Under the pieces are notes generated by a model. It was not told the DNA's origin. It did no database searches and saw only the letters and a program-made list of their open reading frames with translations. From positions 3,528,001 through 3,592,000 of the forward strand of contig NZ_CP042466.1 of NCBI RefSeq assembly GCF_008330225.1: a stretch of 64,000 nt of DNA, read 5' to 3'. The position numbers were made by a program, and so were the translations under genes. Each line of letters opens with the position of its first letter. The stretch's first letter is position 1. Below, piece by piece: positions 41,434 through 51,414 of the stretch. The stretch is from Geobacter sp. FeAm09. Its GTDB lineage: Bacteria > Desulfobacterota > Desulfuromonadia > Geobacterales > Pseudopelobacteraceae.

Positions 41434-41493
41434 GATACTGCTCCTTTCGCTCACCAATCCGTGAGCCTTCGTGATTTGTTCGGGGCAATTAAA

Positions 41494-41528
41494 AAAGGCG
41501 CCCCATTCCCCTGAATGGCGGCGCCTTT
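41494..41528 (-). terminator. Leader terminator (attenuator) before nifH
   Basis: Long hairpin on the minus strand: AAAGGCGCC and CCATTC-type arms (one bulge) pairing with GAATGG and GGCGCCTTT, followed by TTTAATTG. It lies between the σ54 promoter and nifH, about 60 bases before the start codon, so nifH expression requires antitermination. Confidence 0.8.
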
Positions 41529-41531
41529 GCC
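41520..41531 (-). promoter_or_regulatory. ANTAR-type hexaloop hairpin in nifH leader
   Basis: On the minus strand GGC-AAAGGC-GCC: a short stem with a six-base loop having A at position 1 and G at position 4, as known for RNA targets of ANTAR proteins. It shares bases with the 5' arm of the terminator, so the two folds exclude each other. Only one such hairpin was found; a second upstream one was not evident. Confidence 0.6.
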
Positions 41532-41585
41532 GGATTCCGTTGTCTGCTTGTTCAAAGTCTGTCAGATACCTTATGTCTTGGCATA

Positions 41586-41603
41586 TTGCATCCTGCATGC
41601 CAA
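41586..41603 (-). promoter_or_regulatory. σ54 promoter of nifHDK
   Basis: TTGGCATGCAGGATGCAA on the minus strand: GG at -24 and GC at -12 with exact spacing. Gives a leader of about 140 bases that includes the attenuator. Confidence 0.8.
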
Positions 41604-41740
41604 TTTGTAATTAGCTGTTTTCTCTACATTTACAGAAACAGGCCCCTCACATTTGCCGGGTAACGCCCCTTCGTTGCACCTTTTTTATGCACAACTGCAT
41701 AATCCCCTCCTCCCGAGCCCCAAGCAGATGTGCCCACAAA

Positions 41741-41764
41741 AAAGGCACCGATGGCGGTGCCTTT
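41741..41764 (-). terminator. Terminator of nifB-GNAT-nifV
   Basis: 10-bp stem AAAGGCACCG/CGGTGCCTTT with loop CCAT, followed on the minus strand by TTTTGTG, 34 bases after the nifV stop. It lacks the hexaloop motif seen in the nif leaders, as expected for a plain end-of-operon terminator. Confidence 0.85.
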
Positions 41765-41797
41765 GTGTGCAGCAGATTTCAGCATAGAAGGGGAGGA

Positions 41798-42928
41798 TCA
41801 GGCGGCCTCCTTCATACCATACAGTTTGATCAACTGGTTGTTGTTGAGCGGCCGCCGCGTCTGCTGGGCAATCTTTCTCACCTTGTCCATCAGGTGCATG
41901 GCCTCGGCACGACTGATGGAGATCCCCATGTCCTTGTACCGTTCGATCAGGCCGCTGGTGCCGGAGTGCTTGCCCACCACGATCTGGCGTTCGAGCCCCA
42001 CCTCGGCCGGATCGAAGCCTTCGTAGTTCCGGGGATCCTTGATCACGCCGTCGGCATGCAGGCCGGATTCGTGGGCAAAGACCCGTTCGCCTACCACCGC
42101 TTTCCAGGCCGGTAGCGGCCGATTGGAGGCCTTGGCCACGAACAGGGACAGCTCCCGGAAGCGGTGGGTATCGATGCCGGTGTCGATGCCGCTGGCATGC
42201 TTGAGCCCCATCACCACCTCCTCCAGTGCCGCATTGCCGGCCCGTTCCCCCAGGCCGTTGACCGTCGTGTTGACGAACTGCGCCCCGGCGCGGATACCGG
42301 CAATGGCGTTGGCGGTGGCCATCCCCAGGTCGTTATGGGTGTGGACCTCGATGGGCAGTTCGGGCACGGCCGTGCGCAGGGCATGCACCTTGTCGAAGGT
42401 GCCGAAGGGATCGAGGATGCCCAGCGTGTCGCAAAAACGGAAACGGTCCCCCCCCATGGCCCACGTGATCTGCATCAATTCGATGAGAAAGGGGATATCG
42501 GCCCGGCTGGCGTCCTCCCCCCCGACCGAGACGTACAATCCCTTCCCCTTGGCGAATCCCAGGGCCACCTTGAGCTGTTCCTTGACCCATTCCCGGGTCT
42601 TTCTGATCTTGTTGCGGATCATGACGTCCGAAACCGACAGGGAGATGTCCACTGCCGTGACGCCGCTGTCGATGCTGGCCTGGATATCCGGCACCGTGGC
42701 CCGGTTCCAGGTGATCAGCCGGGCATTGAGCCCCAGGTCCACCAATGCCTTGACGTCGCTCTGTTCGTCCTTGCCCATGGCCGGAATGCCGCATTCCAGC
42801 TCCTGTACGCCGATGGAGTCGAGCATGCGGGCAATGGCTACCTTGTCGCGCCTGCTGAAAACCACGCCGGCGGTCTGTTCACCGTCCCGCAGGGTAGTAT
42901 CGTCAATGATGATGGCTGGCTCGTTCAT
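41798..42928 (-). CDS. nifV: Homocitrate synthase
   Basis: 376 residues. It condenses acetyl-CoA and 2-oxoglutarate to homocitrate, the organic ligand of FeMo-co. IIIDDTTLRDGEQTAGV (metal/substrate loop), EVHTHNDLGMATANA, NTTVNGLGERAGNAALEEV and VGKHSGTSG are diagnostic for the isopropylmalate/homocitrate synthase family. The nif context favours homocitrate. Last gene of the nifB unit; GGAGGCA precedes the start. Confidence 0.95.
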   Translation of the reverse strand: MNEPAIIIDDTTLRDGEQTAGVVFSRRDKVAIARMLDSIGVQELECGIPAMGKDEQSDVKALVDLGLNARLITWNRATVPDIQASIDSGVTAVDISLSVSDVMIRNKIRKTREWVKEQLKVALGFAKGKGLYVSVGGEDASRADIPFLIELMQITWAMGGDRFRFCDTLGILDPFGTFDKVHALRTAVPELPIEVHTHNDLGMATANAIAGIRAGAQFVNTTVNGLGERAGNAALEEVVMGLKHASGIDTGIDTHRFRELSLFVAKASNRPLPAWKAVVGERVFAHESGLHADGVIKDPRNYEGFDPAEVGLERQIVVGKHSGTSGLIERYKDMGISISRAEAMHLMDKVRKIAQQTRRPLNNNQLIKLYGMKEAA

Positions 42929-42946
42929 AATTGCCTCCTTATCTCT

Positions 42947-50283: not shown

Positions 50284-50317
50284 GTCGGGAAACCTTTTTT
50301 TATAAAGATAAAATCTG

Positions 50318-50450
50318 TCTCTCACAGAGCTCACGGAGGCACAGAGAGAACCTTTTTAACTAAGAACTTTAAAACAAATTACCTTAAGCTAACCTGACTG
50401 TTTTTTCCTTCTTTTAGGTTTTCTCCGAGTCTCTGTGCCTCTGTGAGAGA
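50318..50450. repeat. Long inverted repeat of the CACAGAG type, copy 3
   Basis: Arms TCTCTCACAGAG (50318-50329) and CTCTGTGAGAGA (50439-50450), with further matching GGCACAGAGA inside. It fills the etfB-etfA gap, starting five bases after the etfB stop. Confidence 0.8.
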
Positions 50451-50455
50451 ACGCT

Positions 50456-51271
50456 TTACAGTGGCAGCATATCCTTTGCCAGCAGCTTGTCGATCAACAG
50501 CGCCGCCGTCCCCTCGGGATCGGCGTAGCCGTCTCCCAGGATCTCCCCCTTGGCCCGTTCCGGCGAAAAGATCTTGCTGACCCAGGTGGGCGACCCCTTG
50601 AGGCCGATGGACTGCTCGTCCAGCTTGAGGACCTGGTTGTTCCAGACCTCCACCCGGGCATCGGCCGCGGCCAGACGCATGGGGACGCGGGGATAGCGCG
50701 GCCGGTTCAGTTCGCGCACCACGGTCAGCATGGCGGGCAGGGGCGCCTCCACGATCTCGTGGCGCCCCTCCAGCTTGCGGCTGACCCGGATGCGTTTGCC
50801 CTCCACGTTCAGGTTGTCGATGCGGTCCACCAGGGTGAGCTGATGATAGGCAAGCCGGGTGGCGATGCCGGGGCCGACCTGGGCCGTATCGCCGTCAATG
50901 GTCTGCTTGCCGCACAATACCAGGCCGACCTCGTCCACCTCGCTGTTCAGCTTGCGGATTGCCGCCGAAAGGACATTGCTGGTGGCCAGGGTATCGGCAC
51001 CGCCGAAGACCCGGTCGGAGAGCAGGATGGCCATATCGACCCCCAGGGCCAGGGCCTTTCTCAGGGTCGCCTCGGCATTGGGCGGCCCCATGGAGAGGAC
51101 GGCGACCCGGCACCCGAAGCGGTCCTTCAGACGGAGCGCCTCTTCCAGGGCATGGGTATCATAGGGGTTGACGATAAAGGGGATGCCCTCGCGCACCAGG
51201 GTGTTGGTGACCGGATCGATCTGCACCTGGGTGGTGTCGGGGACCTGTTTGATACAGGCAACTACGAGCAT
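50456..51271 (-). CDS. etfB: Electron transfer flavoprotein β subunit
   Basis: 271 residues from ATG 51271 (MLVVACIKQVPDTTQVQID). NPYDTHALEEALRLKD, LSMGPPNAEATLRKALALG, DRVFGGADTLATSNVLS and LVLCGKQTIDGDTAQVGPGIATRL are the EtfB/FixA nucleotide-binding signature. A frame extending upstream covers the leader terminator and is not coding. First gene of etfBAD, preceded by a σ54 promoter and an attenuator like those of nifH and nifB. Confidence 0.95.
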   Translation of the reverse strand: MLVVACIKQVPDTTQVQIDPVTNTLVREGIPFIVNPYDTHALEEALRLKDRFGCRVAVLSMGPPNAEATLRKALALGVDMAILLSDRVFGGADTLATSNVLSAAIRKLNSEVDEVGLVLCGKQTIDGDTAQVGPGIATRLAYHQLTLVDRIDNLNVEGKRIRVSRKLEGRHEIVEAPLPAMLTVVRELNRPRYPRVPMRLAAADARVEVWNNQVLKLDEQSIGLKGSPTWVSKIFSPERAKGEILGDGYADPEGTAALLIDKLLAKDMLPL

Positions 51272-51319
51272 GGATGAAGTTCTCCTGCAGTGCCTCACGG
51301 CGAAATTTGAAAAAGAATA

Positions 51320-51349
51320 AAGCCCGGCACTCTGGTCAATGCCGGGCTT
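51320..51349 (-). terminator. Leader terminator (attenuator) before etfB
   Basis: 10-bp stem AAGCCCGGCA/TGCCGGGCTT, loop TTGACCAGAG, then TATTCTTTTTC on the minus strand. It lies between the σ54 promoter and the etfB start. Confidence 0.85.
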
Positions 51350-51357
51350 CGGTGCCC
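51344..51357 (-). promoter_or_regulatory. ANTAR-type hexaloop hairpin in etfB leader
   Basis: On the minus strand GGGC-ACCGAA-GCCC: 4-bp stem, six-base loop with A1 and G4, sharing AAGCCC with the terminator's 5' arm. Third instance of the same switch in this window. Confidence 0.6.
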
Positions 51358-51398
51358 AATCTCGAATCCCGCCACAGACGGAATGGAGTTTAGCATGA

Positions 51399-51414
51399 GC
51401 AGGAAGCATGCCGA
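51399..51414 (-). promoter_or_regulatory. σ54 promoter of etfB-etfA-etfD
   Basis: TCGGCATGCTTCCTGC on the minus strand with exact GG/GC spacing. A palindrome TTTGAC-CCAC-GTCAAA (51415-51430) abuts it upstream and may bind a regulator. The -24 block deviates at one base (TCGG). Confidence 0.7.

Follow-up and report, generated by a model that had tools for sequence, protein, structure and literature searches.

A putative single-hexaloop ANTAR attenuator in nitrogen-fixation leaders of Geobacter sp. FeAm09 and its family

In a 64,000-nucleotide stretch of the genome of Geobacter sp. FeAm09 (NZ_CP042466.1, positions 3,528,001 to 3,592,000; here, the window), the leaders of nifH, nifB and etfB each carry a sigma54-like promoter site, a hairpin with a six-nucleotide loop (hexaloop), and an intrinsic terminator that shares bases with this hairpin. 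A response regulator with an ANTAR domain is encoded between nifB and the etfBAD operon. According to the available text of PMC3369931, published ANTAR attenuators consist of a first hairpin (P1) followed by a second (P2), and EutV depends on the two together, with a linker of set length between them. We propose, with good confidence, that the leaders described here are part of a two-gate nitrogen-fixation switch that works with P2 alone in the family of the window. We also favor, if with less assurance, the view that Oryzomonas and its relatives turned a two-hairpin ANTAR switch into a one-hairpin switch, in which the protein would have to be loaded in the absence of a recruitment hairpin. 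What is new in this interpretation is the lack of the first hairpin; the rest is mostly of a known kind.

P2 hexaloops overlapping leader terminators

The three leaders lie on the minus strand in the order sigma54-like site, P2 hairpin, intrinsic terminator and gene, and each sigma54-like site has the GG-N10-GC spacing. Upstream of nifH (40567 to 41433; PF00142, 436 bits), the −24/−12 site (TGGCATGCAGGATGC, 41588 to 41602; predicted start, ∼41576) is followed by P2 (GGC-AAAGGC-GCC, 41520 to 41531) and by a terminator hairpin (41497 to 41525) that has GCC in common with P2 and precedes a T tract. The nifB gene (43776 to 44648; PF04055), which was named by sequence and neighborhood and for which relatives were matched, is preceded by a site at 44759 to 44773 (TGGCACACTCTATGC), P2 at 44692 to 44703 (GGC-AACGGA-GCC) and a terminator hairpin with a T tract at 44672 to 44695. 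For etfB (50456 to 51271; PF01012), the corresponding elements are at 51399 to 51413 (CGGCATGCTTCCTGC), 51344 to 51357 (GGGC-ACCGAA-GCCC) and 51319 to 51350, with an imperfect U tract (UUUAUUCUUUUU) that made this terminator escape two stricter finders and be picked up only by a looser one. The P2 hairpins were located by sequence and by a hairpin/terminator scan. The combination of promoter, hexaloop and terminator that an earlier note on this DNA had described in the three leaders was thus borne out, with coordinates agreeing within 1 to 2 bases.

In all three leaders, the 3′ arm of P2 is the 5′ arm of the terminator, so the two structures are mutually exclusive. The predicted folding energies of P2 are weak (−5.2, −4.4 and −7.6 kcal/mol for nifH, nifB and etfB, respectively) and those of the competing terminators are strong (−21.1, −17.6 and −23.8 kcal/mol), so that termination would be expected as the default and something must hold P2.

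The overlap is rare in other terminators. A hexaloop with A at position 1 and G at position 4 (A1/G4) over the terminator 5′ arm occurred in 7 of 295 control terminators from loci L033 to L122. These controls came from the window's genome and from relatives, excluded the leader positions and folded at −12 kcal/mol or better; two of the seven (L049 and L082) look by eye like further real elements. In the leaders of the same loci, for which the cutoff was slightly looser (−9 kcal/mol), it occurred in 28/30 nifB and 23/30 nifH leaders, one of the nifB matches (L072) being at a position other than P2. Within the window, 5 of 72 terminator-like sites had such a loop, namely, those in the nifH and nifB leaders plus three more. 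The statement of the earlier note that operon-end terminators lack the hexaloop held after nifV (41743) and gdhA (53152); the site at the end of etfD was not picked up by the finder.

In a wider set of leaders, in which A or G was allowed at loop position 1, matches were found in 46/50 nifH, 42/50 nifB and 12/28 etfB leaders. Three of the nifB matches (L072, L192 and L197) were judged spurious, and five leaders scored as misses (L073, L077, L079, L102 and L109) have a hairpin that is visible by eye. With the spurious matches set aside, position 1 was A in 95 of 97 P2 loops and G in two, both from etfB, although the P2 picker prefers A when given the choice. Positions 2, 3, 5 and 6 vary among relatives. 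Two alignments (named A1 and A4) had their rows picked by a GGCA..G pattern, which makes the invariance of the two loop bases there a product of selection, and they were not used as evidence. Absence of the hairpin from orthologous leaders had been named as a finding that would speak against the proposal; the hexaloop-terminator overlap is instead conserved in relatives. The P2 part of the ANTAR-target motif (A1, G4, a stem of at least 3 bp and terminator overlap) is present in the window's leaders.

The upstream hairpin inside and outside the family

We searched for P1 between the predicted start and P2, requiring a hexaloop that begins with A or G and has G at position 4, on a stem of 3 bp or longer. 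We took 300 dinucleotide shuffles as the control and counted as testable those leaders with at least 18 nucleotides (nt) before P2. Leaders without a detected P2 or without a sigma54 match of at least 8/11 were excluded, which kept 91 of 128 leaders of the wider set and 56 of 59 of a second set; L103 and L115 had been dropped earlier, at contig starts. The 59 stretches of the second set were chosen by hand among the matches listed, five of them, from one outside group (f3), being labeled nifH by guess and nine labeled "other."

Outside the family, 66 leaders were retained, of which 3 had fewer than 18 nt before P2, and P1 was found in 53 of the 63 testable ones versus 5.9 expected. Inside the family (f1), 59 of 81 leaders were testable and only 3 had P1, versus 3.9 expected by shuffling (P = 1.7 × 10−20 for inside versus outside by Fisher's test, uncorrected for shared ancestry). 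The 22 further leaders of the family, all of nifB, have only 4 to 9 nt before P2, which leaves no room for P1. Outside the family, P1 is convincing because of features that the search did not impose: each of the 38 distinct stems of 4 bp or more has C-G as its closing pair, and compensatory types occur at pairs 3 to 6. Loop position 1 of these hairpins was A in 26 of 45 and G in 19. Among the 53 P1 hairpins counted, that of L353 has a linker of 41 nt. Three leaders dropped for want of a sigma54 match were read separately: L344 and L339 have P1 12 nt before P2, and L349 has only one, 46 nt away.

The four leaders examined in the window's genome, which include that of nifEN, have 45 (nifH), 44 (nifB), 31 (etfB) and 48 (nifEN) nt before P2 and contain no A1/G4 P1; the one match with G at position 1, before the etfB P2, is a wobble stem inside a better hairpin. 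The upstream half of the ANTAR-target motif (A1, G4 and a linker of 2 to 25 nt) is accordingly missing from all four. The reservation in the earlier note that only one hexaloop was found and that this version may differ holds family-wide, and from the sequences, a lone hexaloop seems to be characteristic of the family as a whole, as a variant form of the ANTAR attenuator. Short single-hairpin nifB leaders also occur outside the family, in G048, G146 and G149, and in G048 such a P1-less nifB leader coexists with a strong P1 in the nifH leader.

The regulator, its predicted regulon and etfBAD

The GnfR-like regulator gene (46113 to 46676, minus strand; PF00072 and PF03861) gives the sole PF03861 match (72.9 bits) in the 4.1-Mb single-contig genome. 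Residues 4 to 183 of the protein align with EutV (PDB 6WSH), and the RNA-contact residues of EutV named in the available text of PMC8934654 (R142, K143, K147, K149, E160, Y164 and M172) are present as R140, K141, K145, K147, E158, Y162 and M170, an equivalence that was counted by hand. The receiver residues Asp53 (phospho-acceptor), Thr80 and Lys102 are also present. A candidate sigma54 promoter (TGGCATATTAGATGC, 46717 to 46731, minus strand) precedes the gene, with no attenuator separating the two. Sigma54 promoters have been predicted for ANTAR genes, mainly of beta- and gammaproteobacteria, in the accessible part of PMC12316311.

An Rfam scan of the window at gathering thresholds gave no ANTAR-target match but only SAM and TPP riboswitches (24589 to 24687 and 18539 to 18638, minus strand), and covariance models were therefore built from relatives instead, wrong or doubtful rows having been removed manually from the alignments used for training. 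The training set of model R1 comprised 35 nifH and nifB leaders, none from the window's genus, and no etfB or nifEN leader; the best three R1 matches in the window's genome were nifEN, nifH and nifB. Among the 26 R1 loci listed, those other than nifEN, nifH and nifB were rejected, as by eye they look like operon-end terminators or coding sequence. Model R2, for which 22 nif and 7 etfB leaders from other genomes served as the training set (two of the latter being from the window's genus), placed nifEN (36.0 bits), nifB (32.9 bits), etfB (30.2 bits) and nifH (29.9 bits) at the top of the 150 scored out of 3653 first-pass candidates genome-wide, ahead of the next at 26.6 bits. Targets with other stems could be missed by both models. 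A pattern search of the same genome (GGCANNGNNGCC...TTTTT) gave 36 matches, versus 16 for the reversed control, and by eye only those at nifH, nifB, etfB and nifEN had fitting terminators.

The nifEN leader, ∼35 kb beyond the window, thus provides a fourth strong site, with a sigma54-like site, GGC-AAAGGC-GCC and a terminator. The earlier note had the regulator controlling three leaders; this claim is largely supported by the receiver/ANTAR protein, its contact residues and the conserved overlap, but the list of predicted targets was incomplete. Behind the nifEN leader, NifE and NifN form one long open frame with two PF00148 stretches (L153:2704-5463). By eye, the leader of a second nifH copy (L155:1840-2110; protein 84% identical) has neither a hexaloop nor a proper T tract and retains a remnant GGGGCGCC arm. 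In a sample of 200 genomes of the class, each at least 90% complete, 165 had an R1 match (E value, 0.001) and 181 an ANTAR protein, and the element was present in 160/181 genomes with an ANTAR protein versus 5/19 without one (P = 1.3 × 10−8 by Fisher's test).

The place of etfBAD in this regulon was surveyed in the family and in f3, taking only the best match where a genome has several etfB copies. Of 24 etfB leaders from the family, 12 had the element: those of each of the six genomes in the window's genus, five with A and one (L098) with G at loop position 1, and those of G021, G009, G019, G007, G023 and G010. Five of the six leaders from the genus reach the sigma54 cutoff, and L096 falls just below it. 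There was no element in 10 of the 24, and in the remaining two (G033 and G022), it lies ∼270 nt upstream of etfB, with no sigma54 site. None of the four f3 leaders examined had the element, a stricter scan listing one chance-like loop in G049.

A palindrome (TTTTGACGTGGGTCAAAT, 51414 to 51431) adjoins the etfB −24 element on its upstream side. A similar palindrome has the same 16-nt offset from the scored sigma54 sites of L094, L095, L097, L098 and L102 and is present in L096 too; matches occurred in 8/28 etfB upstream regions and in 0/50 nifH and 0/50 nifB regions. It resembles the consensus of HcpR, a CRP/FNR-type regulator, given in PMC545781 (ATTTGACCNNGGTCAAAT). A further sigma54-like site, found 466 nt upstream of etfB, was taken as chance, as it is in none of the 11 other leaders listed. 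The conserved palindrome abutting the promoter is one of the grounds for a reading in which the ANTAR protein controls nifH, nifB and nifEN, and etfBAD answers only to sigma54 and a CRP/FNR-type site. That reading can also draw on the imperfect U tract of etfB, on a G at loop position 1 of its P2 in G007 and, among the six genus members, in L098, and on the presence of the element at only half of the etfB leaders in the family. We consider it unlikely, though the best placed of the alternatives, because the hexaloop and terminator are kept in six genus members and six further genomes of the family, even where etfB and the regulator are on separate contigs (G010 and G021), and because R2, though trained with etfB leaders of relatives, places etfB in the top four. 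On sequence grounds, the data support a clade-limited membership of etfBAD in the ANTAR regulon. According to the available text of PMC10746287, Etf/Fix genes go up in Geomonas and Geobacter when nitrogen is being fixed, and the placement of etfBAD, in the genus, under the same read-through switch as nitrogenase would fit this.

The etfB leaders also bear on a second alternative, that the attenuator is an ordinary dual-hexaloop one whose P1 is present but cryptic, with a different loop, a broken stem or a longer transcript. They fold a short hairpin between the predicted start and P2 (in the window, 8 bp with a triloop, within 51344 to 51390), and that of L097 folds clearly better than shuffles (z = −3.3). 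The stem of this hairpin differs among relatives, its loop is not an A1/G4 hexaloop, and the stems did not line up in an alignment (A3); it is a possible P1 relic. Room for a P1 is available as well, since at least 18 nt precede P2 in 40/40 nifH and 11/33 nifB leaders of the family. Against a cryptic P1, hexaloops of the P1 type are at the shuffle level in the family, none of the folded pre-P2 regions of its nifH and nifB leaders reaches a z value of −2, and the 4-to-9-nt stretches before P2 in 22 of the 33 nifB leaders lie behind good sigma54-like sites. We regard this alternative as improbable, somewhat more so than the one that leaves etfBAD outside the regulon. That the hairpin is a by-product of GC-rich, partly palindromic (GGCGCC) terminator arms, with terminators merely tuning expression and the ANTAR protein acting elsewhere, is very improbable, given that loop A1 and G4 are kept while adjacent positions change, that the overlap is so rare in control terminators, and that neither R1 nor R2 scores any other site in the genome of this sole ANTAR protein higher, although other stems could escape them.

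Proposed mechanism and known systems

In the switch that we propose, the first gate would be the sigma54 promoters, which would start transcription of nifH, nifB, nifEN and etfBAD. At the second gate, RNA polymerase would stop at the leader terminator by default, unless the phosphorylated ANTAR regulator bound the A1/G4 hexaloop of P2, in which case the terminator could not form and read-through would follow. From the features above, we infer binding, phosphorylation, read-through and control by ammonium, as well as that P1 was lost rather than never gained. With no upstream P1 in the leaders of the family, P2 alone would suffice, unlike in published two-hairpin targets, and the phosphorylated dimer would have to catch P2 before polymerase reaches the U tract. 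A high level of the regulator, whose gene is behind a sigma54-like site, pausing, or a tighter grip might substitute for P1. In nifB, the antiterminator hairpin would often be the first structure of the transcript, 4 to 9 nt from the predicted start, and loading without P1 could rely on a high concentration, on prior association with the transcription complex, or on G4 being held more tightly through Tyr162.

Several observations weigh against this proposal. Transcript starts are predicted from sigma54-like sites. R1, untrained on etfB, scores the etfB leader at an E value of only 6.2. The co-occurrence of element and ANTAR protein is confounded by the presence of nif genes, since genomes without the protein may simply lack nif, which weakens it as proof of control, and the five ANTAR-less genomes with an R1 match are G028, G046 (whose nif contig partly reads as N), G053, G109 and G135. 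Ten of the 63 testable leaders outside the family have no P1, including both nifEN leaders examined there, and P1 may have been lost just once, in a single clade.

The equivalent of EutV Tyr164, on which G4 stacks in the EutV-RNA structure according to the available text of PMC8934654, is Tyr162 in the window's regulator. Across 49 aligned regulators, this position is Tyr in 24/24 proteins of the family outside genus g2 and Phe in the other 25 (g2 and the outside groups f2, f3 and f4). As a cause of P1 loss, Tyr162 versus Phe is not sufficient, because P1 is also missing in g2, a genus of this family with Phe. In the g2 ANTAR proteins encoded near nifB (L413 to L418), the receiver Asp is replaced by S, E, A or V, and from these sequences, phosphorylation may not occur in them; three ANTAR proteins of f3 have Glu at this position.

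Geobacter sulfurreducens is said, in work by Ueki and Lovley from 2010, to have a GnfK/GnfR pair in which an RNA-binding ANTAR response regulator controls nif genes at terminators, a kind of control that the window's regulator would share. We take genome G130 to be Pelobacter carbinolicus; its P1 (GTCAC-aaaggt-GTGGC) lies 12 nt before P2, which fits a published prediction, whereas the window's genome has no P1. That prediction, in the accessible text of PMC3369931, placed ANTAR targets on several nitrogenase transcription units of P. carbinolicus under a dual-hairpin model. The present regulon resembles it in that several nitrogenase units of a bacterium from the same class are predicted ANTAR targets. 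It also resembles the EutV dual-hexaloop attenuators (Ramesh et al. 2012; PMC3369931, in its available text) in its A1/G4 P2 over an intrinsic terminator, its receiver and ANTAR protein, and its nitrogen-related targets; it differs from EutV targets, which need both P1 and P2, in that no A1/G4 P1 was found at the genome's four leaders, and P1 is no more frequent than chance across the family.

In the available text of PMC8934654, the minimal bound unit is one hexaloop, P1 is modeled as serving cotranscriptional timing, and single hexaloops are expected where this constraint is absent; a single hexaloop in EutX RNA and nondual stem-loops in Mycobacterium are mentioned, with the role of single hexaloops left for further work. 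Here, unlike that expectation, single hexaloops sit on cotranscriptional terminators. The same text states the question of why ANTAR antitermination needs two hairpins though the dimer holds one, and a P2-only family beside families of the same order and class that mostly keep both, together with G048, makes it testable with small natural RNAs. If the proposal is true, the need for two hexaloops in ANTAR antitermination would no longer hold as a general rule, and two-hairpin search models would, the data suggest, miss such regulons. In the available open literature (subscription papers and supplements being outside the search), we found no description of single-hexaloop ANTAR attenuators on nif genes or of etf as an ANTAR target. 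A term search of the accessible text of the G. sulfurreducens RpoN paper (PMC2725144) gave no match for the ANTAR domain, nifH, nifB or etf.

Downstream of etfB on the minus strand are etfA (48958 to 50334; PF01012, PF00766 and Fer4), with an N-terminal 4Fe-4S domain, and an etfD-like Fe-S/CCG oxidoreductase gene (46809 to 48782; PF02754 and Fer4). Between nifB and the regulator gene, a gene of the ADP-ribosylglycohydrolase family (PF03747) lies on the plus strand at 44991 to 45902.

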